64,000 nt of DNA from Amycolatopsis lexingtonensis (GTDB lineage: Bacteria; Actinomycetota; Actinomycetes; Mycobacteriales; Pseudonocardiaceae): positions 2,668,501-2,732,500 of the forward strand of contig NZ_JADBEG010000001.1 in assembly GCF_014873755.1 (NCBI RefSeq), in the 5' to 3' direction. Shown here one piece after another: positions 5,617-60,294 of this stretch. The notes under the pieces were generated by a model. It was not told where the DNA came from and made no database searches. It saw nothing but the letters and a program-made list of their open reading frames with translations. Each line of letters opens with the position of its first letter. Position 1 is the first letter of the stretch. The position numbers and the translations under genes were made by a program.

Positions 5617-5628
5617 ACCCCTCCTTGG

Positions 5629-5687
5629 AAGTCCGTGAATGCCACATTGAGAGACCTAACGTCCGTGAATGTGGCATTCACGGACTT
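5629..5687. repeat. 20-bp inverted repeat with internal hairpin (AAGTCCGTGAATG type)
   Basis: AAGTCCGTGAATGCCACATT at 5629-5648 is exactly the reverse complement of 5668-5687. The right arm also belongs to its own hairpin: GTCCGTGAATG, loop TGG, CATTCACGGAC (5661-5685). It fills the gap between the binding-protein and Gfo/Idh/MocA genes. It shares a plan (GTC, GAATG, 3-nt centre, CATTC, GAC) with palindromes near 10.7-10.8 kb, suggesting one dispersed family. It could act as an attenuator or RNA-stability element inside the operon. Confidence 0.85.
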
Positions 5688-5695
5688 CGGCCGGC

Positions 5696-6751
5696 TCAGG
5701 AATCGAAGCCGACGTCGAGGTACTGGTCGACGTTCTCCTTCGTGACCACCGCCGAGTACGTCGTGATGTCGGCCGGGATGTCGTGCTCGGCCAGGTCGCC
5801 GATCCCCTTGGCCTGCGCGAGCAAGCGGGCGAGCGCCACCGCCGTCGAGGCCATCGAGGGGCTGTAGAGCACGGTCGCCTTGATCGGCGACGAGTCGGCC
5901 TTGATCAGGTTCATCATGTTCTTCGAGCCGGCCCCGCCGACCATGATGAACTCCTTGCGGCCCGCGGTGTCGATCGCCGCGTTGACCCCGATGCCCTGGT
6001 CGTCGTCGTGGTTCCACAGCGCGTCCAGCTTCGGCGCGCCCTGGAGCAGGTTCGCGGTCTGCTGCTCCCCCGACTCCGACGTGAACTGCGCCGACACCCG
6101 CGGGCCCACGCTGAACCCGGCGCGTCCCAGCGCGTCCTTGAAGCCCTTGCTGCGTTCCTGGGTCAGCGGCAGCGAGTCGATGCCGGCGACCTCGCCGATG
6201 ATCGGGTTCGCGACGTTCTTCTTCTTGAGCTCCGCGGCGATGTAGTTGCCCGCGTTGACGCCCATCCGGTAGTTGTCGCCGCCGATCCACGTCCGGTACG
6301 CCAGCGGCGTGTCGAAGATGCGGTCGAGGTTGATCACCGGGATGCCGGCGTCCATCGCCTGCTGGCCGACCGAGGTCAGCGCCTTGCCGTCGAAGGGCAG
6401 GATCACCAGCACGTCGACCTTGGCGTTGATCAGCGTCTCCACCTGGGAGATCTGCTGGTTGACGTCGTTGGTGCCCTCGGTGGCGTTGAACTTCACCTCG
6501 CTGAACTTCTGCGCCTGCGCCTTGGCGTTCTTGGTGATCGCCGCGATCCAGCCGTGGTCGGCGGCCGGGGCGGAGAAGCCGATGGTGACCGGCTTGCCCG
6601 GCTGGGCGTTGTTGCCCGCGTTGGCGACCGGCGCGTTCGACTCCGAGTTCGCGGGCGTGTTCGACGTGCAGCCGGCCAGCAGCGCGCCGGCGCCGACGGC
6701 GGCCCCACCCAGCAGGAATCCCCGGCGGCCGAGGAAGGGTTGTTCGGTCAT
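5696..6751 (-). CDS. Sugar ABC transporter substrate-binding lipoprotein
   Basis: 351 aa, periplasmic-binding-protein type I (ribose/RbsB-like). The N terminus combines a twin-arginine stretch (GRRGFLLGG) with a lipobox LLAGC, so the mature protein is a membrane-anchored lipoprotein. Family features: VTIGFSAPAADHGWIAAI, VDVLVILPFDGKAL, AGIPVINLDRIF and LDALWNHDDDQGIG. Start chosen: ATG at 6749-6751 with GGAGG five bases upstream. An alternative ATG 12 bp further upstream overlaps that ribosome-binding site. It delivers a sugar to the permease encoded 21 bp upstream. Confidence 0.93.
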   Translation of the reverse strand: MTEQPFLGRRGFLLGGAAVGAGALLAGCTSNTPANSESNAPVANAGNNAQPGKPVTIGFSAPAADHGWIAAITKNAKAQAQKFSEVKFNATEGTNDVNQQISQVETLINAKVDVLVILPFDGKALTSVGQQAMDAGIPVINLDRIFDTPLAYRTWIGGDNYRMGVNAGNYIAAELKKKNVANPIIGEVAGIDSLPLTQERSKGFKDALGRAGFSVGPRVSAQFTSESGEQQTANLLQGAPKLDALWNHDDDQGIGVNAAIDTAGRKEFIMVGGAGSKNMMNLIKADSSPIKATVLYSPSMASTAVALARLLAQAKGIGDLAEHDIPADITTYSAVVTKENVDQYLDVGFDS

Positions 6752-10698: not shown

Positions 10699-10792
10699 CT
10701 CGAGGCGACACCGGCGCGCCACGCCGACTCCGCCGGACCTCCGGCTCAGCGACCGACCGCGAGCCGGACCGCTCGGCACCGGCCAGCTCGAA

Positions 10793-10817
10793 CGTCTTGA
10801 ATGAGTCATTCAAGACG
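10793..10817. repeat. Perfect 25-bp palindrome CGTCTTGAATGA/g/TCATTCAAGACG
   Basis: Twelve-base perfect arms around a single central G. It lies 72 bp beyond the ROK stop at 10889 and could form a strong hairpin in either transcript. Confidence 0.9.
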
Positions 10818-10823
10818 CCCAGC

Positions 10824-10847
10824 GCCCTGAATGACTCATTCAAGACC
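10824..10847. repeat. Degenerate copy of the same palindrome (CCTGAATGA/c/TCATTCAAGAC)
   Basis: Seven-base perfect inner arms TGAATGA/TCATTCA and mismatched outer bases. It sits 7 bp from the perfect copy, as expected of a decayed duplicate. Confidence 0.7.
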
Positions 10848-10888
10848 TCGACCGCTGCGGCGACTCCGCCGGACCCGCCCAGCGCCGG

Positions 10889-23828: not shown

Positions 23829-23927
23829 CCGTCGGTGCCCCTTGGGCCGATCGGCGCAATTCGCGGTGTCCCGGAACCGGGGCTTCCCGGGGCGCGTCAG
23901 TATGAAGGCCGTCAAGGGAGTGTGCTG

Positions 23928-26900
23928 ATGCCGGAGGGGAATCCGCTCGTCGCGGACTCGAAGCAGGACCCGGACGGCCCGGGCGCGTTCACCGCCGGCA
24001 ACGGCGACTACGGCTGGGCCGGCGGCATCGGCATCGCCGAATCCTCCATGGACGCCTTCAACGGCATCAAAGACGGCGACTGGGTCTCCGGCGGCCTCGG
24101 CATGCTCTCCCTCGCCGGAGAAATCGCCGGCGCCGCGATCGACCCGTTCGGGTACCTGATGTCGTCGGTCGCGTCGTTCCTGATGGAACACGTGCAGCCG
24201 TTGAAGGACATGCTCGACTCCGTCGCCGGCAACCCGCCGGTCATCCAGTCCTACGCCGACACCTGGGGCAACGTCTCCAAGGCATTGGGCGAACGCAAAA
24301 CCGATTTCGACAACGCGGTCAAGAACGGCACCACCGGCTGGACCGGCGCGGGCGCGGACGCCTACCGGAAGTTCGCCGCGGAGCATTCGGAGGCGCTGTC
24401 GGGGGCGGCGACGGTGGCCGGGGCGATCAGCACGGTCACGATGATCATGGGCCAGGTCGTGTCGTTCGTCCGCGAAACGGTCCGGCAGCTGATCGCCGAC
24501 CTGGTCGGGAAACTGATCGCGTGGGTGATGGAGGAGGTCTTCTCCCTCGGGTTCGGCACCCCGGTGGTGGTCGCGCAGGCGTCGGCGGCGATCGCCAAGT
24601 GGGGGAAGAAGATCGGGGAGCTGCTCAAGAAGCTCACCGACACCATCCGGAAAGTGTCGCCGCTGCTGTCGAAGCTGGTCGACGTCTTCGAGAAGATCGC
24701 GAAGGTGTTCGGGAAGGTCCTGGGGAAGGTCTCCGGCCTGGACGGGCTGAAGGTCAAGGAAGGCGGCTTCGTCCACAAGATCCCCAAGGGTGAAGGTGGC
24801 GGGGTTCATGCCCGGGCCCACGGCGACTCCCCGGATGGGGAGGGGTCGCACTCCGGCGACGGGTCCTCCGGTGGGGACGAGTCCGGGCATCCGGACGGGG
24901 ATTCGCCGAGTTCCGACCCGATGAACACCGAGTCCTCACCGGAGGCGGGGTCCCGCCGCGGCTCCGGCCAGGACGGTTCTTCTTCGCGCGCCGGGGACGA
25001 TTCCCCGGCGGCGCACGGTGGGGAGCCGGACGGCAGCCCGTCGGCGACGCGCACGGAGGAGGGTGCGCCGGGCCGGGGCGGGGATTCGAGCCCGTCGCAC
25101 GCCGGGGACAGCACACCGTCGCGGGCGGGTGAGGGCAGTTCACCGACTCGATCACCCTCCCACTCAGACGATTCCAGCCCCTCGCCCGCCCGGGGCGGCG
25201 AGCCCTCCCACTCCGGAGACAGCAGCCCCTCGCGTGCGGGGGACAACGGCCCGTCGCATGCCGCGGACAGCGCGCCGTCGCGGGCGAGCGACAGCAGCCC
25301 GTCGCCGACTCGCAGCAGCGAGCCGTCCCGTGCCGGGGACAGCAGTCCGTCGCCCACCCGGGGCAGCGAGCCGTCCCATGTCGGCGATTCGGGCCCGTCG
25401 CCTGCCCGGGGCAGCGACAGCACGCCCTCGCACGCCAGCGACAACACCCCCGCGCGGGCGAGCGACGCCAGCCCCTCGCCGACTCGCAGCAGCGAGCCTT
25501 CCCACGCCAGTGATTCGAGCCCGTCGCCCACCCGCAGCGAGCCCTCCCACGCCGGGGACAGCAGCCCGTCGCCGGCCCGCGGCGGCGACCCCAGCCCCGC
25601 CCGCTCGGCGCCGGACGGGCACACCGGCACCGATAGCCCCAGCAGCGTCGCACCTGCCCGGCCCGACGGGACCACCTCCGCCAGCGGCACCGCCCCCACC
25701 GCACCCCGCACCAGCGATCCCGTCCCCGCCCCCCGCGGCGCCGACAGCCCCGGTGTCCCGCCGCAGGGCGGCGCGCCGATGGCCGGTGGGATGCCGCCCG
25801 GCGGCGCACCCGCCGCCGGCGGCGGTGGGCTCGGCGGTGGCGGCACCCCGCGCACCAGCGGCGGGGGCTGGACCGGCACCCCCGGCAGCCCCGGCGCGCA
25901 CACCCCCGACGCACCCGGACGTCCCCGCACCGGCAACGACCTCCCGCCGAGCCGTCCCCGCACCCCGGAGGCACCCGCCCCGGCCGCCCGCGGCTACCGC
26001 CCCGACACCCACACTCCCGGTGCTCGGCCCGGCGCCAACACCTCACCCACCCGGCCCGGCACCCACGCGCCCGGTGCCCGGCCCGGTGCCGACGGCCACG
26101 CACCCGGCACCCACAGCCCCGACAGCAACGGCCACGGCCCCCACGACAACAGCCCCGGCCACCACGGCGCCGACGACCCTGACACCGGTACCCCGCACCA
26201 CAACGAGCCCCTCACCCCCGACGAAATCAACACCCGACACGCCGAACACACCCCCGCCGGCACCTCCTACCACGCCGGCGATCCCGACCTCGGCGACCTC
26301 CCCCACCGCGTCCAACCCGACCCCGATGGCCGCTACACCGTCGACGTCCACGTCACCCCCGACGGACACGCACGCATCGGCGACCGCCTCTACACCCCCG
26401 AACAATTCGCCGACATCCTCCGCCGCAACACCGACTACGACGGCCGCCCCATCCGCCTCATCGGCTGCGACGCCTCCTCCAACGACTTCGCCCACCGCCT
26501 CTCCCGCGAACTCGACACCGAAGTCCTCGCCCCCACCCGACCCGCCTGGACCGACTCCCACGGCCGCGTCTTCTCCTCCGACTACGAAATCGGACCCGAC
26601 GGCCGCATGCGACCCCGCATCCCACCCGACGGCGAATGGAACACCCACCACCCCGACGGCACCACCCACCGCCACGGCGACGACGGGTTCGCGCCCGGCA
26701 GCCACGACGCCGACGCCGACACCGCGCGAGCCCGGGGTGACGACGCGCACAAGAAGAAGGTCCACGAAGAACTCCTCGAAAAACTCAACAAGCACGACGA
26801 CGAAGCCAAGGAACTGCTCCGCAAGTACTGGCGGCAGATCGAGGGCGACGACCAGGTCATCAGCCGCCGGCGGACCAACGCCGAGCACGAAGGCGTCGAG

Positions 26901-27680
26901 CTGCCGGTGCTGCGCCGCAACGAAAACGGCGACTACGAGATCCACCAGCCCGCCAACGCCGGCAACAACGTCCGGTCCGAGTTCATCGACGGCAGCCGGC
27001 GGACCGGGGGTCGCGACACCGCGCCGCCCGAACTCCTGGAAGACGCCGACATCCTCGCCGCCGGGCGGCCGCACATCTGGTCCTATTTGGACGAAGCCAA
27101 CCACTCGGTGCGCGGGACTCCCCTGCCGGACAGCCGGTTCGAGACGCCGCTCGACGAGTTCGACCAGGCCGGCTTCAACGACGTGCAGAGCAACCACTGG
27201 AACAACAAGCTGGGCGAGCTGGCCGCCGACCACGCCGTCGGCGACGGGCTCGGGCGGGCCGAGTTCGCCGACCGGCCGCTGCGGCCGGTGGACGTGCCCG
27301 ACCGGGGCGCCCACCACTTCGACCGGGTCTACCAGGACCCCGACGGCAACTACGTGATCGTCGAGGCGAAGGGCCCGTCGGCCGGCTACAACGCCAACGG
27401 CGGCTACCAGCAGGGGCACCCCGAATACGTCCGGAACGTCATCGCCAAGATGATCGAACGCGGCGAACCCGAGGCCGCCCACGCACACCTGATGCAGAAG
27501 CAGCTCGACGAAGGCAAGCTGCGCTACTTCTACGTCAAGGCCCAGGTCGAGAAGCCCGATCTCACCGGCTACACCGACGAGCAGCTGCGCGCGATGCCCG
27601 CCGCGCAGCGGCCCGCCGACCGGTACGCCGGTTACGCCGCCTCGGAGTTCGACCTTTCCCTGACGACGCGGCGGCCGTGA
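23928..27680 (+). CDS. WXG-type polymorphic toxin with REase-like C-terminal domain
   Basis: 1250 aa; ATG with GGGAG seven bases upstream. Residues 1-290: helical secretion module with WTGAGADAYRKFA (WXG motif) near 139. ~297-565: Ser/Pro/Asp tandem repeats; ~565-790: Pro/Gly/His-rich linker. ~795-920: a possible caspase-like peptidase with conserved-looking His (TVDVHVTPDGHARIGDR) and Cys (IRLIGCDAS). C terminus: YVIVEAKGPSAGYN then QQGHPEYVRNVI, the D/E-xK pattern of REase-fold toxins. Probably exported by a type VII-like route, possibly self-cleaved to free the nuclease. The tail faces the RHS gene 12 bp away, so no immunity gene directly follows. Confidence 0.85.
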   Translation: MPEGNPLVADSKQDPDGPGAFTAGNGDYGWAGGIGIAESSMDAFNGIKDGDWVSGGLGMLSLAGEIAGAAIDPFGYLMSSVASFLMEHVQPLKDMLDSVAGNPPVIQSYADTWGNVSKALGERKTDFDNAVKNGTTGWTGAGADAYRKFAAEHSEALSGAATVAGAISTVTMIMGQVVSFVRETVRQLIADLVGKLIAWVMEEVFSLGFGTPVVVAQASAAIAKWGKKIGELLKKLTDTIRKVSPLLSKLVDVFEKIAKVFGKVLGKVSGLDGLKVKEGGFVHKIPKGEGGGVHARAHGDSPDGEGSHSGDGSSGGDESGHPDGDSPSSDPMNTESSPEAGSRRGSGQDGSSSRAGDDSPAAHGGEPDGSPSATRTEEGAPGRGGDSSPSHAGDSTPSRAGEGSSPTRSPSHSDDSSPSPARGGEPSHSGDSSPSRAGDNGPSHAADSAPSRASDSSPSPTRSSEPSRAGDSSPSPTRGSEPSHVGDSGPSPARGSDSTPSHASDNTPARASDASPSPTRSSEPSHASDSSPSPTRSEPSHAGDSSPSPARGGDPSPARSAPDGHTGTDSPSSVAPARPDGTTSASGTAPTAPRTSDPVPAPRGADSPGVPPQGGAPMAGGMPPGGAPAAGGGGLGGGGTPRTSGGGWTGTPGSPGAHTPDAPGRPRTGNDLPPSRPRTPEAPAPAARGYRPDTHTPGARPGANTSPTRPGTHAPGARPGADGHAPGTHSPDSNGHGPHDNSPGHHGADDPDTGTPHHNEPLTPDEINTRHAEHTPAGTSYHAGDPDLGDLPHRVQPDPDGRYTVDVHVTPDGHARIGDRLYTPEQFADILRRNTDYDGRPIRLIGCDASSNDFAHRLSRELDTEVLAPTRPAWTDSHGRVFSSDYEIGPDGRMRPRIPPDGEWNTHHPDGTTHRHGDDGFAPGSHDADADTARARGDDAHKKKVHEELLEKLNKHDDEAKELLRKYWRQIEGDDQVISRRRTNAEHEGVELPVLRRNENGDYEIHQPANAGNNVRSEFIDGSRRTGGRDTAPPELLEDADILAAGRPHIWSYLDEANHSVRGTPLPDSRFETPLDEFDQAGFNDVQSNHWNNKLGELAADHAVGDGLGRAEFADRPLRPVDVPDRGAHHFDRVYQDPDGNYVIVEAKGPSAGYNANGGYQQGHPEYVRNVIAKMIERGEPEAAHAHLMQKQLDEGKLRYFYVKAQVEKPDLTGYTDEQLRAMPAAQRPADRYAGYAASEFDLSLTTRRP
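25060..25620 (+). repeat. Degenerate Ser-Pro tandem repeats in the toxin linker
   Basis: Irregular in-frame repetition of GDSSPSP, SEPSHA/SRAGD and SPARG/SPTRS units of ~10-16 codons, repeated at DNA level as gacagcagcccgtcg and cgagccgtcccatg. Low complexity makes this region prone to length changes and assembly error. Confidence 0.85.
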
Positions 27681-27692
27681 CCGGCAGCGGCG

Positions 27693-30600
27693 TCAGCTGA
27701 AGTCGCCCGTGAGGGTGTCCATCTTGGTGCCCTTCGGCGGGAACTGCGGCAGGAAGTTCTTCTCCTTGGCGAAGCCGATGTACTTCTGCACCTCCGGCGT
27801 GAGCCCCTTGTACTCCGCGTTCAGCTCCAGGTGGTCGCGGATGGACCGCTCGAACGGGTTGGGCGAGTTCGGGAACTTGACGTTCGGGCTCGCGTTGACC
27901 GAGTACTCCACGTGCAGGTTCTTGATGTCGTCGCGGACCTTGTTGTACTCGCTGGGGCTGAAGCCGGCCCGCTTGAGGTCGTTGTCCGACGGGAGCTTGG
28001 ACTTCAGCTGGTCGAGGCGGGTGTTGGCGTTCTTCAGCGGGCCCTCGAACGAGCCGGACATGTTCTTGTTCGCCGTCGACGTCAGCGGCGTCATGTTGTC
28101 CGACAGGCCCGGGCCACCGAGGTTGTCGTTCTGCAGGTGGCCGCGGATCCAGCGGTTCTTGCCGTCCGGGTTGTAGCCGTTGACCTTGTTCAGCTCGTTC
28201 TGCAGCTCCGGGCTGTAGCTGGAGTGCTTGGTGTTCTCCAGGTCCTTGACGTCGGTGAGTTCGCCCGGCTGCGGCTTCGAGCCGCCGGGGCGCGGCGACC
28301 CGTCGAGGGTCTGCGTCCCGGACGTCGTGCCACCGCCCTGCGAAGTCGTGCGGCCGCTGACCGGGTCCTTGCTGCCCCACGGCTTCGAGGGACCGCTCGG
28401 CTGGTTCGACGACGTCCCGCCGGAGCCGCTGCCCTTCTTCGGCTTGGTCTTCGGGTACGGCGCCGCCGCCTGGGTGGCCGCCTTCGAGCACTTGCCCGCC
28501 GTCGTGCGGCCGGAGAACCGGCGCTGGTCACCCGGATCCGAGCCGAAGCCGCCGGAAGTCAGGCCGAGCGGGTCGGCCGCCATCAGCGGGTCGCCGACGT
28601 AGGTCAGCGGGTTCGGCGCCGGCGCGAGGCCGAGCGGGTCGGGCGAGATATAGCGGGCGTTGGCCGGGTCGTAGTAGCGGAAGACGTTGTAGTGCAACCC
28701 GGTTTCCCGGTCGAGGTACTGACCGGGGAACCGCAGCGGGGTCTCGGTCGCGCCCGCGCCGGACAGGCCCCACAGGCTCGTGCGCACGGCCCGGACCACC
28801 CCGTCCACGCCCACCAGGTCCACCGGCGTGCCGATGTCGTCGGTGACCAGCGCGGCCAGCCGCGTGCGGCCGTCCGGGGTGGTGACCGCCTGCGCCACCG
28901 GACGGCCGTCGTCGGGGTGGTGCACCCACGTCCACGTCTCGACCGGCGCGCCGCCCAGCGTGTGCCGGGCTTCGACCAGTGCGTTGCCGTCCCAGGTGAA
29001 CTCGACCTGCTCGGCGACCGCGCCCGCCGCGTCGAGGCGCTGCTTCGCGATCCGGCGGTCCAGCGCGTCGTAGTGGTAGCGCCACTCGGCGCCGTCGGGG
29101 GTGCGCACCGCCGTCAGGTGGTCCTGCGCGTCCCAGGCGAACGTCCAGGTCAGGTCCCCGATGGTCCGCCGCACCAGCCGGCCCTGCGCGTCGTGGACGT
29201 AGTGCACCGCGCCGGCCGCCTCCAGCACACCGCCGGTGTAGCGGCGCGGCCCGGCTTCGGGCCCGGTCCCCGGGGACGAGGACACGAGGTGGCCGAGGAC
29301 GTCGTAGGCGTAGTGCTCGGCCGTGCCGGGCCGCAGCACCGCCGTGATCCGGCCGCTCGCGTCGAACTCGTGCCGCACCGCGCCTTCCGGGTCTTCGCGC
29401 GCCACGACGCTGCCGTCCGGACGCCGGTGATAGCGCCGGGTCCCGGCGGGCGTCCGCTGCGCCGCGAGCCGGCCCGCGGCGTCGAACTCCTGCTGCACCA
29501 ACGGGTTCGCCCCGAAGGCGACGGCCACCGTGCGGCCCGCCTCGTCGCGCTGCAGCACCAGGCTCGCGCCCGCGACGTCCAGCAGGTCCATGCCTTCCGT
29601 CCGTCGCCAGTGGACGTCCACTCCGGACGGAGTGCGCCGCCGGGTCGCGGTTTCGCTGTCGTAGCCGAAGGTCGTGGTGCGGCCGCCGGTGGTCTGCCGG
29701 ACGACCCGGCCCTCGGCGTCGTGGGCCAGCTCGACCGCCCCGCCCGGGCCGGCGGCGTGCACGAGCCGGCCGACCGGGTCGTAGCGGTAGGTCTCGGTGC
29801 CCGCGGCGGTGACGCGCTCGGTCAGGTTGCCGAGCGGGTCGTAGCGGTACTCGACGACCTCGCCGGCGGCGTTCTCCATGCGGACCAGCTGCCCGGCGGC
29901 GTCGTAGGCGCAGCGGGTGACCCGGCCGTCGAAGTCGGATTGTGTGAGCAGCCTGCCCTCGGCGTCGTAGGTGTACTCCCAGGTCCGCCCGGCCGGGTCG
30001 GCCACGGCGAGGAGCCGCAGCTCGGTGTCGTAACGGCGGGTCGTGCGCGCGCCCGACGGGTCGGTCGTGGCGACGACCAGGTCGAACGGCCCGCGTTCGG
30101 TGACGGTGACGCGGCCGAGCGCGTCGGTGTGCGACGTCTCCCCGCCCTCGCCGTCGTAGGTCCACAGCTGCCGGGCACCGTCGGCGGCCACGACGGCCCG
30201 CAGGTCGCCCTCGACCGTCCAGGTCAGCGCGGCGCGGCCACCGCCGTCGCGCACCGTGCGCGGCCGGCCGAACAGGTCGGGCTCGGCCGGGGCACCGGGC
30301 GCCCACGGCTGCCCGGCGGTCGGCGGCTGCTCGTCGTCCTGGTCTTCGGCCACGCCCAGCGGATCGGTGTAGGGATCGGGCAGGGCCGTGGCCGGGTAGC
30401 GGCGGCGGAACACTCTCCCGGCGGCCGTGACCTCGATTTCGAGGGCCGTTTCCGTGCGCTCGATCAGCACCACTCGGGTGCCGTCCGGGCGCAGCACCGC
30501 GCGCAGGATCCCGGCGGCGTCGTGCTCGAACTCCGTGCGCCTGCCGAGCGGGTCGGTGCGGGCCAGCAGCCGGTTGTGCGGGCCCCATTCGCTGCGCGTG

Positions 30601-32483
30601 ACGCCGCCGAGCTTGTCGGTCTCGGCCACCACGTTGCCCGCCGCGTCGAACTCGAAGACCTTCCGGTGCCCGAGCGAGTCGGTGGTCGTCGTGCGGCCTT
30701 CGGCGTAGGCGAGGGACCCGTCGAGGTAGCCCTGGTCGCCGACGGTCCGGACGCAGCGGCCGGCGTCGTCGTAGACGTACCGGTACCAGGCGCCGTTGTG
30801 GTCGGTCCAGCCGGTGAGCCTGCCCTCGGCGTCGTGGTCGTAGCGCGCGGGCCGGGGCGTGGAGTTGGTGCGCACGGCGAGGTGCCCGTGCGCGTCGTAG
30901 TCGTAGCGCGCGACCGGCACGTCCCCACCGGGCGAGACGGCCCGCACGGCCCGGACCCGGCCGCCCGCGGTCTCGAACGCGATCCGCGCGCCCGCGGAGT
31001 GGGTCAGCAGCAGGGGCGCGCCGGCGGGGTCGCGGTCGAGTTCGAGGAACTCGCCTTCCTCGGTGCGGACTTCGCGCAGCAGCAGCTCACTGTCGCCGGC
31101 GGGCGCGAAACGCCGGGCCTGCCCGCGGCCGGGATCGGTGACCACGTAGTCGTCGCCGTCGGCGTGCAGCAGGCGAAGCGGCCCGTGCTGGGAACTCGTG
31201 GTGGCGCCCGGTGCGGGCAGCGGGAAGGTCAGCACCATCGCGTCGGCCGAGTGGTAGCGCACCAGGCCGGCGTCGAGGGTCAGCCGTTCGTCGGGCAGCG
31301 CGGTCCAGGACGGGCCGAACCAGCGGCCGTCCCGGTAGGACGACACGTGGTTGCGGGTGATCAGCTCGCCGAGCGCGCCGGGCACCACCAGGTCGACCTC
31401 GGTGAACAGCACGTCGCCGGTCGCGACGTCGATCGGGTCGAACTCGCAGACCTTTTCGTCCGGTTCCTTGGTCTTCGCCGGATCCGGCCCGTCCTTGGGC
31501 TTGCCCTTCGGCGTGCCCGACGGCGTGGTGGAGTTCCCGTCGGGACCGCCACGGGTGGCGGTCGGCGGCGGTTCCGGGCTCTTGGGGGCGTCGTCGGGCC
31601 CCTTCGACGCCGGCGGCGGGTCGGATTTCGGCGGGGTGTCCGGGCCCTTGGCGCCGGAGGTGTGGGTGCCGTCGATCCCCTTGGGGTTGCCGTTGATGTC
31701 GGCGTGCTTCGGCGGGGGCGCGGCCTTGCCCGGCTTGATGTTCTTCAACGCCTTCGCCGCATCCGAGAACAGGTCCCCGGCCCGCTTCAGCAGCGGCACG
31801 AGTGCTTTGAGGGCGGTGACGAGCCGTTTGACCAGGTCAGCGATCTTCGACGCGGTTTTGGCGACGGCGTTGATGACCTGCGGCACCACCCACGTGAGGC
31901 CGATGCCGAGGGTGAACACCACCTGCAACGCCCAGCTGATCAAATGCCCGATCAGCTCCGCGATGATGTCCCGCACCAGCGCCCGCACCGCCGCCACCAC
32001 CTCACCGGCGGTCTTCACCCCACTGGACGCACCTTCGCAGCCTTTCTGCGCGGTCTCCAGCAGGGTGACGGTGTCCTGCGCCCGCTGACGGTAAGTATCA
32101 GCGGCGGGACCGGTCCAGGAGACAGTGTCGGCTTTCACCATCCCGGTCAGGTCCTCGCCGATGCTGCCCAGCTCGGTCGCGACGTTCTTCCACGTCTCGG
32201 ACTGGGCGGCGATCTCATCGGCGTTCCCGGTCAACCCGTTGAGGGCTTCTTTGAGCGGGCCGACGTGTTCCATCAGCCACCCCACCCCGGCGGCGAGGAT
32301 CGCCCCGAACGGGTCCATCGCCATCGACAGGGCGTCGAGGGCGGTGCCGACCGCGCCCATCGCGACGGAGGCCCAGTCGCCTGATTCGATCGCGGATTTC
32401 AGGTCGTTCGCCGATTCCAGCAGCGAGATGCCCGAATACGCCTTGGTCGAGTCCTTGGTCTCAGCGACCAGCGGGTTGCTGAT
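27693..32483 (-). CDS. RHS-repeat polymorphic toxin with WXG-type N terminus
   Basis: 1596 aa if started at 32483. Residues 1-270: helical module paralogous to that of the convergent toxin (NPLVAETK, DPFGAILAAGVGWLMEHV, WTGPAADTYRQRA). ~345: DUF6531-like start (CEFDPIDVATGDVLFTEVDL). ~480-1300: YD/RHS repeats ending RYYDPANARYISPDPLGLA. C terminus: RGHLQNDNLGGPGLSDNMTP, a nuclease-like motif of polymorphic toxins. First ATG is 32360, but homology to the paralogue starts 41 codons earlier at an ATC codon with GGGGAGG nine bases upstream; a stop precedes it. Either AUC initiates or the start codon is mutated. Confidence 0.85.
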   Translation of the reverse strand: MSNPLVAETKDSTKAYSGISLLESANDLKSAIESGDWASVAMGAVGTALDALSMAMDPFGAILAAGVGWLMEHVGPLKEALNGLTGNADEIAAQSETWKNVATELGSIGEDLTGMVKADTVSWTGPAADTYRQRAQDTVTLLETAQKGCEGASSGVKTAGEVVAAVRALVRDIIAELIGHLISWALQVVFTLGIGLTWVVPQVINAVAKTASKIADLVKRLVTALKALVPLLKRAGDLFSDAAKALKNIKPGKAAPPPKHADINGNPKGIDGTHTSGAKGPDTPPKSDPPPASKGPDDAPKSPEPPPTATRGGPDGNSTTPSGTPKGKPKDGPDPAKTKEPDEKVCEFDPIDVATGDVLFTEVDLVVPGALGELITRNHVSSYRDGRWFGPSWTALPDERLTLDAGLVRYHSADAMVLTFPLPAPGATTSSQHGPLRLLHADGDDYVVTDPGRGQARRFAPAGDSELLLREVRTEEGEFLELDRDPAGAPLLLTHSAGARIAFETAGGRVRAVRAVSPGGDVPVARYDYDAHGHLAVRTNSTPRPARYDHDAEGRLTGWTDHNGAWYRYVYDDAGRCVRTVGDQGYLDGSLAYAEGRTTTTDSLGHRKVFEFDAAGNVVAETDKLGGVTRSEWGPHNRLLARTDPLGRRTEFEHDAAGILRAVLRPDGTRVVLIERTETALEIEVTAAGRVFRRRYPATALPDPYTDPLGVAEDQDDEQPPTAGQPWAPGAPAEPDLFGRPRTVRDGGGRAALTWTVEGDLRAVVAADGARQLWTYDGEGGETSHTDALGRVTVTERGPFDLVVATTDPSGARTTRRYDTELRLLAVADPAGRTWEYTYDAEGRLLTQSDFDGRVTRCAYDAAGQLVRMENAAGEVVEYRYDPLGNLTERVTAAGTETYRYDPVGRLVHAAGPGGAVELAHDAEGRVVRQTTGGRTTTFGYDSETATRRRTPSGVDVHWRRTEGMDLLDVAGASLVLQRDEAGRTVAVAFGANPLVQQEFDAAGRLAAQRTPAGTRRYHRRPDGSVVAREDPEGAVRHEFDASGRITAVLRPGTAEHYAYDVLGHLVSSSPGTGPEAGPRRYTGGVLEAAGAVHYVHDAQGRLVRRTIGDLTWTFAWDAQDHLTAVRTPDGAEWRYHYDALDRRIAKQRLDAAGAVAEQVEFTWDGNALVEARHTLGGAPVETWTWVHHPDDGRPVAQAVTTPDGRTRLAALVTDDIGTPVDLVGVDGVVRAVRTSLWGLSGAGATETPLRFPGQYLDRETGLHYNVFRYYDPANARYISPDPLGLAPAPNPLTYVGDPLMAADPLGLTSGGFGSDPGDQRRFSGRTTAGKCSKAATQAAAPYPKTKPKKGSGSGGTSSNQPSGPSKPWGSKDPVSGRTTSQGGGTTSGTQTLDGSPRPGGSKPQPGELTDVKDLENTKHSSYSPELQNELNKVNGYNPDGKNRWIRGHLQNDNLGGPGLSDNMTPLTSTANKNMSGSFEGPLKNANTRLDQLKSKLPSDNDLKRAGFSPSEYNKVRDDIKNLHVEYSVNASPNVKFPNSPNPFERSIRDHLELNAEYKGLTPEVQKYIGFAKEKNFLPQFPPKGTKMDTLTGDFS

Positions 32484-32671
32484 GGCGCCCTACCTCCCCG
32501 TGGAACAGCCTGGAATCACTCCATATAAGCACGGAACCGCGGATGGCCTTCCGGGCGCGCACGGAAGAGAGGTGCCTGGTGCCCGGACGCACCCGAAAGT
32601 GTGCCCGTGGCCACCTGGAGCGAGGGCACACCGAAGTACTCCGGGCCCGACATGGGGGTCGTCAGGGCCCG

Positions 32672-32809
32672 TCACCAGAGATCCTTCAGCTGGTTGATCA
32701 GGTTGACGACCTGCTCGACCAGCGTGAGGGCGATGACGAACGGACTGATGGCTGCCGCGACGCGCAACCTCGTCGTCTTCTTCTCCCGGTGGAACTTCCG
32801 ATGCGCCAT
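32672..32809 (-). CDS. 45-residue basic/hydrophobic peptide
   Basis: Start ATG with GGAG six bases upstream. The N-terminal third is strongly basic (MAHRKFHREKKTTRLR), followed by one hydrophobic helix (VAAAISPFVIALTLVEQVV) and a short polar end. Likely a single-pass membrane peptide. Its leader folds so that the ribosome-binding site is paired (next entry), an arrangement known for type I toxins and riboswitch-controlled genes. No homologue recognised; function unknown. Confidence 0.6.
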   Translation of the reverse strand: MAHRKFHREKKTTRLRVAAAISPFVIALTLVEQVVNLINQLKDLW

Positions 32810-32907
32810 GGACTTCTCCGTGGTTCTGGCCCGCTCGCGCGGGCCGGCTACCCCGGGTTTCCCCGGGGCTCTCGAGCCGGTGCCCGAGAGCTGACGGGGA
32901 GAAGTCC
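32810..32907 (-). ncRNA. Structured leader with three hairpins and a helix hiding the RBS
   Basis: On the minus-strand RNA, GGACUUCUCC (32907-32898) pairs perfectly with GGAGAAGUCC (32819-32810), which contains the Shine-Dalgarno of the 45-aa peptide. Enclosed are hairpin 1 (GCUCUCG/CGAGAGC, 32891-32885 with 32874-32868), hairpin 2 (CCCCGGG-GAAA-CCCGGGG, 32868-32851) and hairpin 3 (GGCCCGC-GCGA-GCGGGCC, 32845-32828). Two have GNRA tetraloops. The fold is a multi-branched junction resembling a riboswitch or RNA thermometer. I do not recognise it as a known class. Confidence 0.6.
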
Positions 32908-33114
32908 TGTCGCCCCGCCAGCGTAGCAATGACCAGGCTTCTCCGGTCGCATTCGTCTTGAACGCGGCTGTCCGGTTTTGTCAGCCGGTGTCCGCCCGTT
33001 GCGGCATCCGGCGTAATTCACCCCCGACCCGGTCACACCGGACGGCGGACCGCCGATACGTCCGGCAGGGATCTTCGTCATGGGGGCGGGGAAGTTCACG
33101 AGGGGGAACGATTC
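32908..33114. other. Divergent promoter region
   Basis: About 205 bases between the structured leader (leftward) and the secreted-protein gene (rightward). Contains GGTGTCCGCC, TCACACCGG and an AT-richer GTAATTCACC stretch, but no consensus -35/-10 pair I can defend. A GAGGGGG ribosome-binding site lies eight bases before GTG 33115. Confidence 0.4.
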
Positions 33115-34605
33115 GTGCTGTTTTCATCGCGTTCGAGAAGCCGGACGGCCGTGGTCGCCGTGCTGACCGCGGCGCTGGCCGCCGTCGGGACGGGTGTCGC
33201 GCAGGCCGCGGCGCCGCCGGGCAACGACGACTTCGACGACTCGGCCGTCGTCACCGCGCTGCCGTTCGCCGCGCAGGAGGACACCAGCGCGGCCACCGAG
33301 GCGGCCGACGACCCGGCCTGGTGCGAGGGGTCCGCCGCTTCCGGGACGGTCTGGTTCCGGTACACCGCCACCGAGGACGGCCTGCTCCGCGCCACGACGG
33401 CAGGCAGTGACCACCGGACGATCCTGTCCGCGACCACCGGGACGCGCGGGCACCTGCAGCCCGTGGCCGACGCCTGCGCTTACGGGACGGACGCCACCAT
33501 CACGTTCCGGGCCACGGCGGGCACGACCTACTCCTTCCAGGTCGCCGGCATCGAAACCGCGGGTGGCGCGCTGTCGTTCTCGCTCGGCACGGTCGCGCCC
33601 GCGGCCAACGACGCCTTCGCCGCCGCCGAGACCGTGACCGCCCTGCCGTTCACGCGGCAGCCGGACCTTTCGGTCGCCTCCGCCGAAGCCGGGGAGCCGG
33701 ACTCGACCTGCGTGGACGATGAGGCCCAGCCCTCGGTCTGGTACTCCGTGCCGGCCGCCGACGCGGCGCGTTCGCTCACCGTGCAGGCCCAGGGGACCTA
33801 CGCCGCCGCCACCGTCTACGCCGGGAACTCGCTGACGGCGCTGACGCAGGTCGCGTGCGACCGGAGCTCCTCGAACCCGGTCGCGTTCCGGGCGGCGGCC
33901 GGCACCGGCTACGTCGTCCGCTTCACCGGGGCGCACCAGAGCTACGGCCCGTTCGAGCTGGAGCTGGCCGAGGCACCGCCGCTGGAGCCGGACGTCTACG
34001 TGTCACCGAGGTCCGCGACGGTGTTCGACAACGTCGGTTTCTCGGCCTCGACGTGGAACTCGATCGACCGGCCGCTGGGCGGGACCTGGGACTTCGGCGA
34101 CGGCAAGACCGCCCCGGTCGGCACCGAGACCACCTACCACCGCTACGCGGCCGACGGCGTCTACCCGGCGGCGCTCCACGCGACGTCGCCCGACGGGCGC
34201 ACCGCGACCGTCGACGTCCCGATCACCGTGACCACGCACGACGTCGGGATCGCCAAGTTCGTCGTCCCCACCTCCGCGCGGCAGGGGGATAGCAAGCCGG
34301 TCTCGGTGGACGTGACCAACACGCGGTACGCCGAGACGGTCACCGTCTTGCTGTCGAAGCGGTCCGGGGACTCCTGGACCGACGTCGGCCGGCTGACGCT
34401 GCAGGTGCCCGCGCGGGCCACCGGCAAGGTCCGGTTCCCGTTCTCCTACACCTTCGGCCCCGAGGACGCGCTGTCCGGCAAGGTCGCGTTCCGCGCGGAG
34501 GCCCAGCTGCAGTACCCGACGGAAGACGCCTACCGGGCGGACAACGTGGCGATCTCCGTCGCCACCACCGTCACCCCGCCCGCCACGCGCATCGCCGCCG
34601 TCTGA
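33115..34605 (+). CDS. Secreted PKD-like multidomain protein, paralogue 1
   Basis: 496 aa. GTG with GAGGGGG upstream; signal peptide ending AQAAAPP. Two ~130-aa beta-rich modules beginning (P)GNDDFDDSAVVTALPF and ANDAFAAAETVTALPF, each with a Cys pair, then a PKD-like Ig fold (GTWDFGDGKT, YHRYAADGVYPAALHATSPDG) and a C-terminal beta domain. Resembles cell-surface adhesion or binding modules of Gram-positives; no catalytic motif. It is 14 bp from a paralogue with the same order. Confidence 0.8.
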   Translation: MLFSSRSRSRTAVVAVLTAALAAVGTGVAQAAAPPGNDDFDDSAVVTALPFAAQEDTSAATEAADDPAWCEGSAASGTVWFRYTATEDGLLRATTAGSDHRTILSATTGTRGHLQPVADACAYGTDATITFRATAGTTYSFQVAGIETAGGALSFSLGTVAPAANDAFAAAETVTALPFTRQPDLSVASAEAGEPDSTCVDDEAQPSVWYSVPAADAARSLTVQAQGTYAAATVYAGNSLTALTQVACDRSSSNPVAFRAAAGTGYVVRFTGAHQSYGPFELELAEAPPLEPDVYVSPRSATVFDNVGFSASTWNSIDRPLGGTWDFGDGKTAPVGTETTYHRYAADGVYPAALHATSPDGRTATVDVPITVTTHDVGIAKFVVPTSARQGDSKPVSVDVTNTRYAETVTVLLSKRSGDSWTDVGRLTLQVPARATGKVRFPFSYTFGPEDALSGKVAFRAEAQLQYPTEDAYRADNVAISVATTVTPPATRIAAV

Positions 34606-43642: not shown

Positions 43643-43720
43643 GCTGCTCCCCTTTCGAGGTGGCGGGAAGGGACCCACCGGTTCGGGCGGTGGTGGGAGA
43701 TCACCCTGCCCCCTGGGGAG

Positions 43721-43755
43721 CGCGCCGGGTGTTCAACTTCTGGACACCCGGCGCG
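43721..43755 (-). terminator. Strong stem-loop after the acyl-CoA synthetase gene
   Basis: Twelve-base perfect arms CGCGCCGGGTGT and ACACCCGGCGCG around an 11-nt loop, 28 bp beyond the leftward synthetase stop at 43783. No U-tract follows, as is common in high-GC actinomycetes. It lies 79 bp upstream of iorB and could alternatively be an operator. Confidence 0.65.
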
Positions 43756-59982: not shown

Positions 59983-60044
59983 GGTCTTTCACCTCCGGCG
60001 GCGGGTCCACCAGTTTAACCGCGCGCCGGAAAATATTTCGGTAA

Positions 60045-60082
60045 CGAAGCCGGCCGACGCGGATTCGCGTCGGCCGGCTTCG
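60045..60082 (-). terminator. 17-bp-stem terminator of the NRPS-MFS-MbtH operon
   Basis: CGAAGCCGGCCGACGCG and CGCGTCGGCCGGCTTCG flank the loop GATT, starting 15 bp beyond the mbtH stop. Downstream on the minus strand an AT-rich AAATATTTT follows, a partial T-run. It also isolates the TIR gene promoter. Confidence 0.85.
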
Positions 60083-60096
60083 TCATCGGCTGGGGG

Positions 60097-60294
60097 CTAC
60101 TGGGCCGCCATGCGCTCGCGGAGGCTGCGGGGGCGCATGTCGGTCCACACCTCGTCCACGTGGTCCATGCACTCCTGGCGGGTGCCCGTCGTGCCGTCCG
60201 GGCGCCAGCCCGCCGGTACCTCCTTGTCCACGGGCCACAGCGAGTACTGCTCCTCGTCGTTGACCAGGACCTGGAAGGTGGTGTTCTCGTCCAT
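60097..60294 (-). CDS. MbtH-family NRPS chaperone
   Basis: 65 aa with the invariant MbtH pattern: FQVLVNDEEQYSLWP, VPAGW, CMDHVDEVWTDMRPRSLR. Binds adenylation domains and is needed for their folding or activity. ATG overlaps the MFS stop as TGATG, so it is translationally coupled to the exporter and NRPS. Confidence 0.96.
   Translation of the reverse strand: MDENTTFQVLVNDEEQYSLWPVDKEVPAGWRPDGTTGTRQECMDHVDEVWTDMRPRSLRERMAAQ

Follow-up and report, generated by a model that had tools for sequence, protein, structure and literature searches.

What does a leader do that folds back onto the ribosome-binding site (RBS) of a very small gene, and is it a riboswitch, a thermosensor, part of a toxin locus or simply a stable fold in GC-rich DNA? 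The question arose from a first-pass annotation, made from the letters alone, of a 64,000-nt stretch of Amycolatopsis lexingtonensis (hereafter the window), in which a leader was seen to pair the Shine-Dalgarno (SD) of a 45-codon open reading frame (ORF) into a perfect helix. Three further genomes of the family, referred to as G037, G111 and G330, carry related sequence. From upstream to downstream, the elements of the locus are as follows:

32920..32925, minus strand: -10-like hexamer TACGCT, 12 nt before helix P1 (hexamer scan)
32898..32907, minus strand: 5' arm of P1, GGACTTCTCC, the anti-Shine-Dalgarno strand (fold and alignment)
32892..32897, minus strand: joining region J1/2, CCGTCA, identical in G037 and with one substitution plus a 1-nt insertion in G330
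32868..32891, minus strand: P2 hairpin of 10 bp with loop ACCG, with mismatches in G037 and G330
32852..32867, minus strand: P3 hairpin of 6 bp with a GAAA loop, shifted to AAAC in G330
32828..32845, minus strand: P4 hairpin of 7 bp with a GCGA loop, GTGA in G037 and GCGA in G330
32810..32819, minus strand: 3' arm of P1, GGAGAAGTCC, including the Shine-Dalgarno GGAGAAG at 32819-32813 (fold, alignment and SD opening)
32672..32809, minus strand: 45-codon ORF with a basic N-terminus and one hydrophobic helix, with homologues in clusters P0001-P0005 and in G037
32642..32671, minus strand: hairpin right after the stop codon, a terminator candidate without a U-tract (-19 kcal/mol, z -2.94, 1 of 200 shuffles)

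RNA folding of the minus strand recovered the structure that had been described. The 98-nt leader (32907-32810) forms three hairpins closed by the 10-bp helix P1, in which 32907-32898 pairs with 32819-32810 at all ten positions, six of them G-C in the window; P1 spans the SD, and its last base directly precedes the AUG at 32809-32807. Every structural detail given beforehand, namely the three hairpins, the two GNRA loops and the perfect 10-bp helix over the SD, was confirmed by the fold, whose minimum free energy of -68.4 kcal/mol compares with a shuffle mean of -43.6 (z -6.69; none of 200 dinucleotide shuffles equally stable). After adjustment for composition, the leader ranks fifth among the non-overlapping 105-nt stretches of the window (25-base steps), so that stability by itself is not unique, whereas the placement on the RBS is. 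The strongest adjusted fold of the window lies at 10746-10850 (z -6.1), with a long stem made from two copies of TGAATGASTCATTCA, a motif that has 4 matches over both strands against 0 expected by chance; the adjusted fold energies at 5626-5730, 43651-43755 and 60026-60130 (+) are likewise stronger than that of the leader (z -4.0 to -4.6).

The position of the SD within this structure is where the leader stands apart. Its predicted opening is 0.01 in the window transcript and 0.003 in G037, and when the upstream part was shuffled with the SD and tail held fixed, the mean opening rose to 0.575 and 0 of 200 shuffles were as closed; the proposed hiding of the RBS is thus borne out in the folding model. 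Counting both strands, the window has 233 ATG or GTG sites that carry an SD-like motif. A perfect complement to the last 10 nt ahead of the start codon, located within the preceding 110 nt, occurs at one of them (1/233), and the leader's own site has such a complement. The earlier remark that such pairing is not expected by chance is supported. When the SD is forced open in the window, a site 3' of the SD becomes the partner of the 5' arm. Downstream pairing of the 5' arm was set aside as lying at chance level, with 163, 440 and 819 of 1000 shuffles as strong in the window, G037 and G330, respectively.

A helix holding the SD is also what an RNA thermosensor would require, and this was one of the functions originally put forward. 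Opening the SD is predicted to cost 9.9 kcal/mol in the window and 12.3 in G037 at 37 °C, but still 8.4 and 11.6 kcal/mol at 45 °C, and G-C pairs make up six of the ten pairs of P1 in the window. This high cost at 45 °C makes heat an unlikely trigger, and with a helix predicted to stay closed at that temperature, a thermosensor is the least likely of the functions proposed at the outset; we regard it as extremely improbable.

The small ORF downstream of this helix is, as judged from its sequence, a real and conserved coding gene. Its codon-position GC content (0.58/0.33/0.91) follows a coding pattern, and comparison with the syntenic G111 copy over 37 codons gave 5 synonymous and 1 non-synonymous changes (dN/dS 0.06), whereas dN/dS against the more distant G037 was 0.57. 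Homologues among 5.8 billion proteins fall into five clusters, P0001-P0005, of 45-48 aa, with Amycolatopsis sp. cmx-4-61, Amycolatopsis sp. TRM77291 and an Actinomycetota MAG (M3548) as named sources. Thus the small basic and hydrophobic ORF noticed at first sight stands as a gene under purifying selection. The five peptides examined carry 7-8 Lys/Arg in their first 20 residues, followed by a hydrophobic stretch; in the window peptide the best 19-residue hydropathy is 1.97 (residues 17-35), and AlphaFold, run from 7 sequences, predicts a single helix from residue 2 to 44 (pLDDT 79, pTM 0.39). No Pfam family was found for the peptide. A profile search of 390 family genomes returned three credible ORFs (window, G111 and G037), while weak matches (E about 0.002) in G107 and G241 were regarded as noise and kept out of the homologue counts.

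The gene appears to be transcribed on its own. TACGCT is the only minus-strand TANNNT hexamer in 32601-33000 of the window, and a TANNNT hexamer, picked by eye, stands at the identical 12-nt spacing before P1 in all three loci that have the leader (TAATCT in G037, TAGTTT in G330). From this spacing, the transcript would be expected to start a few bases before P1, and the leader would be nearly the whole 5' UTR. A simple sigma-70 consensus scan of 32450-33150 found no promoter, and the candidate promoter is therefore defined by its -10 element. At the other end, the 30-nt hairpin right after the stop codon points to a transcript confined to this one gene and not including the RHS gene, the frame of which starts ~190 nt further along. 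The corresponding hairpin of G037 is weaker (z -2.0, 11 of 200 shuffles); the stretch of G111 that was folded starts within the corresponding repeat and so gives no information here.

The adjacency to the RHS gene, which the first-pass annotation had pointed out, holds in the window and in the syntenic G111, but the neighbours are others in G037 and G330. The RHS gene itself, of T7SS type (27693-32483, minus strand), may start at ATC, to judge from its sequence: the SD GGGGAGGT is followed by ATC at 32483-32481, an in-frame TAG lies just upstream of it, and the first ATG/GTG/TTG comes 41 codons later. G111 shares this ATC, and there an in-frame TTG follows at a short distance. The gene converges with another at 23835-27680 (plus strand), both with WXG100-like N-terminal matches below the curated cut-off, and since their ends are 12 bp apart, there is no space for an immunity gene between them.

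How far does the leader extend beyond this locus? In G037, a homologous leader precedes a 48-aa homologue of the ORF at a different locus and folds alike (-61.7 kcal/mol, z -4.38); it lies between a GntR-type gene and YbaB-like genes, the latter being the nearest downstream, and a frame further downstream matches WXG100 weakly, with a score under the curated cut-off. A covariance model built from the window and G037 leaders detected a third one in G330, which belongs to another genus of the family (72.5 bits, E 1.2e-13 for one genome). Across 390 family genomes the model yielded three credible leaders, those of the window, G037 and G330; two further matches (E 0.012-0.017) were taken as noise. 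The weak model matches so treated, L044, L046, L069 and L070 (E 0.005-0.017), were left out of the homologue counts, and L044 and L046 lacked the leader architecture when folded. The order-wide (397 genomes) and class-wide (235 genomes) searches recovered the window's own leader only; the large RNA-model searches scored no more than 9-16 candidates per genome, so that weak relatives could escape. No Rfam family matched the leader at its gathering score, 11 matches at E up to 10 all fell below theirs, and at E up to 1 there was no match in L002 and L045, in agreement with the initial impression that no described RNA class has this arrangement.

Several other sources of relatives were followed and abandoned. 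A phage, plasmid or viral origin was rejected: no phage or plasmid sequence matched the locus in blastn, none of the 146 stretches that a protein pattern picked out of viral contigs was a relative, and a P1-pattern scan of the viral contigs gave 18 stretches, none of which, by eye, had the three-hairpin architecture or the leader sequence. Within its own genome, only short pieces were found besides the locus itself (E 0.035 or worse; 40 of 67 blastn candidates scored). Genus-wide, 46 of 80 genomes were among the blastn matches listed at E <=0.01, and the pieces other than the window, G111 and G037 (~23-57 bases, E 6e-4 or weaker) were dropped as chance matches of GC-rich sequence.

Whether the structure itself is under selection can be judged from the three aligned leaders. 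All pairs of P1, P3 and P4 are complementary in all three, with one compensatory pair (C-G to U-A) in P4, while P2 is paired in 26 of 30 cells (87%) and broken in the other 4. Within P1, P3 and P4, 6 of 6 single transitions swap a Watson-Crick pair and G-U when read as sense, against an expectation of half breaking the pair (p 0.016); with P2 included, 7 of 8 keep pairing (p 0.035) once an unbreakable G-U pair of the window is left out (8 of 9 before this exclusion), and P2 also carries transversions that break pairs. Read as antisense RNA, 4 pairs would be broken in G037 and 8 in G330, against 2 and 2 as sense. Formal covariation was not significant, as 162 of 500 shuffles reach the score, with only three leaders, two of them from one genus. 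The covariation check that had been suggested thus came out divided, with P1, P3 and P4 kept in all three leaders and one compensatory pair on one side, and the shuffles and the broken cells of P2 on the other. With random substitution as the control, P was 0.49 from window to G037, 0.10 from window to G330 and 0.06 from G037 to G330; the other directions gave 0.0005, 0 of 20000 and 0.01, but two of them run towards the window, where the structure was defined.

Sequence conservation bears on the same question. Between the window and G037, 14 of 99 leader columns differ, compared with 39 of 135 nt in the ORF and ~39% of synonymous sites (about 13 of 34), so that the leader is more conserved than the ORF (Fisher p 0.007 against ORF nucleotides and 0.005 against synonymous sites, with the leader entered as 14/100). 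Its paired columns vary less than its unpaired ones, with changes in 6 of 66 and 8 of 33, respectively (p 0.06). The three internal 1-nt indels between leaders all fall in unpaired columns and argue against the leader as coding sequence, a reading that was set aside.

The same data bear on a further explanation, namely that the element is a DNA-level palindrome, a site bound by protein or a fold that arose by chance. This GC-rich window has many strong folds, and the fifth rank of the leader is in keeping with such an origin, but the placement on the SD, shared by no other of the 233 sites, the changes that keep pairing more on the sense than on the antisense strand, and the conservation of the leader in another genus render it very improbable. 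With related copies in two other genomes, the leader has instead the look of a genuine genetic switch, albeit a rare one that has not been characterised.

Natural variants of the unit offer a further view of how its parts belong together. In G111, the flanks are 86-88% identical on both sides, and the leader and first seven codons are missing: TACGCT stands directly before codon 8, and the rest of the ORF is still open. Without a start and an SD, this remaining ORF is, from its sequence, probably silent; the 45-aa P0003 call starts at a GTG overlapping the promoter region. Loss of the helix in close relatives, which had been named as an outcome that would speak against the proposal, is therefore seen in part, as P1 is complementary in G037, but G111 has neither leader nor start codon. 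G330 presents the opposite case, with promoter region and leader kept, AUG changed to AUC and the small ORF absent. Folded alone, its leader retains P1 and P3, whereas P2 and P4 give way to other pairings (z -2.81; 2 of 200 shuffles equally stable), and with downstream sequence included, P1 is not favoured and the old SD is predicted to be 65-70% unpaired. The next reading frame in G330 resembles an unrelated secreted protein without a Pfam match, and the frames scanned there comprised an HxlR regulator, an alpha/beta hydrolase, an integrase core and a downstream frame that matched no Pfam family. Re-use of the leader to hide the SD of the new gene found no support (SD 0.38 unpaired, 115 of 300 shuffles as low). 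The G330 copy may thus be a decaying relic. Just upstream of it (L045 1095-1399) lies a large inverted repeat with 44-nt arms 89% and 35-nt arms 74% complementary, and a frame that we take to be IS21-like lies downstream.

The G330 variant could also be read as a dual-function or stand-alone small RNA, in which the leader would act in trans or be processed and the ORF would be secondary. Consistent with this, promoter region and leader persist in G330 without the ORF, and the blastn match between G037 and G330 begins 66 nt ahead of the leader and breaks off at the start-codon position (L071 9045-9214 with L073 8607-8777). Nevertheless, purifying selection on the ORF relative to G111 is at odds with a secondary role, and as the G330 copy may itself be decaying, having lost two pairs of P2, forming neither P2 nor P4 when folded by itself and not favouring P1 in context, we consider a small RNA quite unlikely.

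A metabolite riboswitch or protein-binding leader would fit other features, with the four-way junction as aptamer and P1 as an expression platform closed or opened by a ligand. The leader is conserved more than the ORF, the joining regions CCGTCA and GAACCA are identical between the window and G037, and in G330 the leader precedes a different reading frame, as a portable control element might. Furthermore, a competing helix between the 5' arm of P1 and that of P3 appears in the predicted nascent folds of all three leaders at 55-60 nt, with the same sequence in the window and G037 and a shorter one in G330; it is transient in these folds. However, this helix, measured as pairing inside P2-P4, is at chance level (373, 96 and 708 of 1000 shuffles as strong in the window, G037 and G330), shows no covariation and has 2 of its 6 pairs broken in G330. 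The leader is moreover rare, found in 3 of 390 genomes of the family and, at the level of order (397 genomes) and class (235 genomes), in the window's own genome alone, and it is without an Rfam relative. A ligand-operated leader seems unlikely to us. Our literature search met no matching riboswitch candidate and, by title, nothing relevant on Amycolatopsis riboswitches.

A further candidate is a classical type I toxin-antitoxin locus, where the peptide would be the toxin, a separately promoted antisense RNA the antitoxin, and the leader would keep the nascent mRNA inactive. Type I toxins are described in an excerpt of PMC8309996 as under 60 aa with a helical transmembrane segment, and the peptide is likewise below 60 aa and hydrophobic, with a predicted helix of this kind. 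Its SD is predicted to be buried in the mRNA, as an excerpt of PMC11228461 describes for primary toxin mRNAs, which are inactive with a structure blocking the RBS, and its distribution is sporadic, at different loci. On the other hand, no antisense TANNNT -10-like hexamer occurs in 32601-33000 of the window, and between 32660 and 32848 that strand lacks even a TA dinucleotide; in G037 a single antisense TANNNT hexamer lies at the ORF end (1646), and the scan leaves room for other promoter types or trans-encoded RNAs. Also, the positive charge is N-terminal here, while the same excerpt of PMC8309996 speaks of generally C-terminal cationic residues. With regard to the host, type I systems were, according to an excerpt of PMC12390103 (2025), known only in Proteobacteria, Firmicutes and Tenericutes before a cyanobacterial case, and among the matches listed in open-licence literature, searched by titles and abstract starts, there was no type I system in Actinobacteria or Actinomycetota. 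The classical arrangement, with its separate antisense RNA, seems unlikely to us.

We favour, with somewhat better than even confidence, a free-standing one-gene mRNA for a conditionally translated membrane peptide that is silenced in cis. Computation supports this in the structure, the predicted SD burial, the coding selection on the ORF and the homologous promoter region and leader at other loci. The unit would comprise ~250 nt, with a single promoter, a leader making up almost all of the 5' UTR, a 45-48 aa basic and hydrophobic membrane peptide and a probable hairpin terminator. During transcription, P2, P3 and P4 are predicted to form locally, and as the SD emerges it would be captured by the 5' arm in P1, which would leave the finished mRNA translationally silent by default. 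Translation would proceed only once P1 is opened or removed, with 5'-arm cleavage, a trans-acting RNA or protein, or a ligand as the putative opener. The product would most likely be a growth-affecting membrane peptide. What we infer is that the promoter is used, that the mRNA is off in cells, that it can be released, and that the peptide is active.

A more far-reaching version, to which we give a small chance, would see in the promoter-leader cassette a new class of actinobacterial regulatory RNA, whose four-way junction silences a membrane-active peptide wholly in cis and without antisense RNA. This would be a type I-like toxin system of Actinomycetota with its own leader as antitoxin, and in its boldest form the loop would be closed by the peptide itself, whose Arg/Lys-rich N-terminus would bind the GNRA hairpins in the leader of its own mRNA.

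Among known systems, RNA thermometers of the SD-helix type hold the SD in a helix, as does this leader, which is in contrast predicted to be closed at 45 °C, and by a long-range helix. In translational riboswitches and orphan candidates, the closing helix may contain the RBS; the leader resembles them in its multi-helix junction, its conserved joining regions and its location directly before the AUG, but differs in matching no Rfam class and in its very narrow distribution. Default silence in cis, the best-supported reading, would work as in the cis-silenced mRNAs of membrane type I toxins (the timP, tisB and AapA1 class; known type I toxins were compared via Pfam and protein searches). Common to both are a very short hydrophobic peptide, an RBS predicted to be buried by its own mRNA, and a small free-standing gene of scattered distribution. 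In contrast to that class, the window stretch scanned has no antisense -10-like site, the charge is N-terminal and the host is an actinobacterium, and here the P1 that closes the four-way junction lies on the SD itself. Should an off state and an effect of the peptide be demonstrated, cis-silenced membrane-peptide genes would extend to Actinomycetota, in the form of a compact RNA lock that comes with its own natural variants: intact pairs in the window and G037, a leader without its ORF in G330 and an ORF without its leader in G111.
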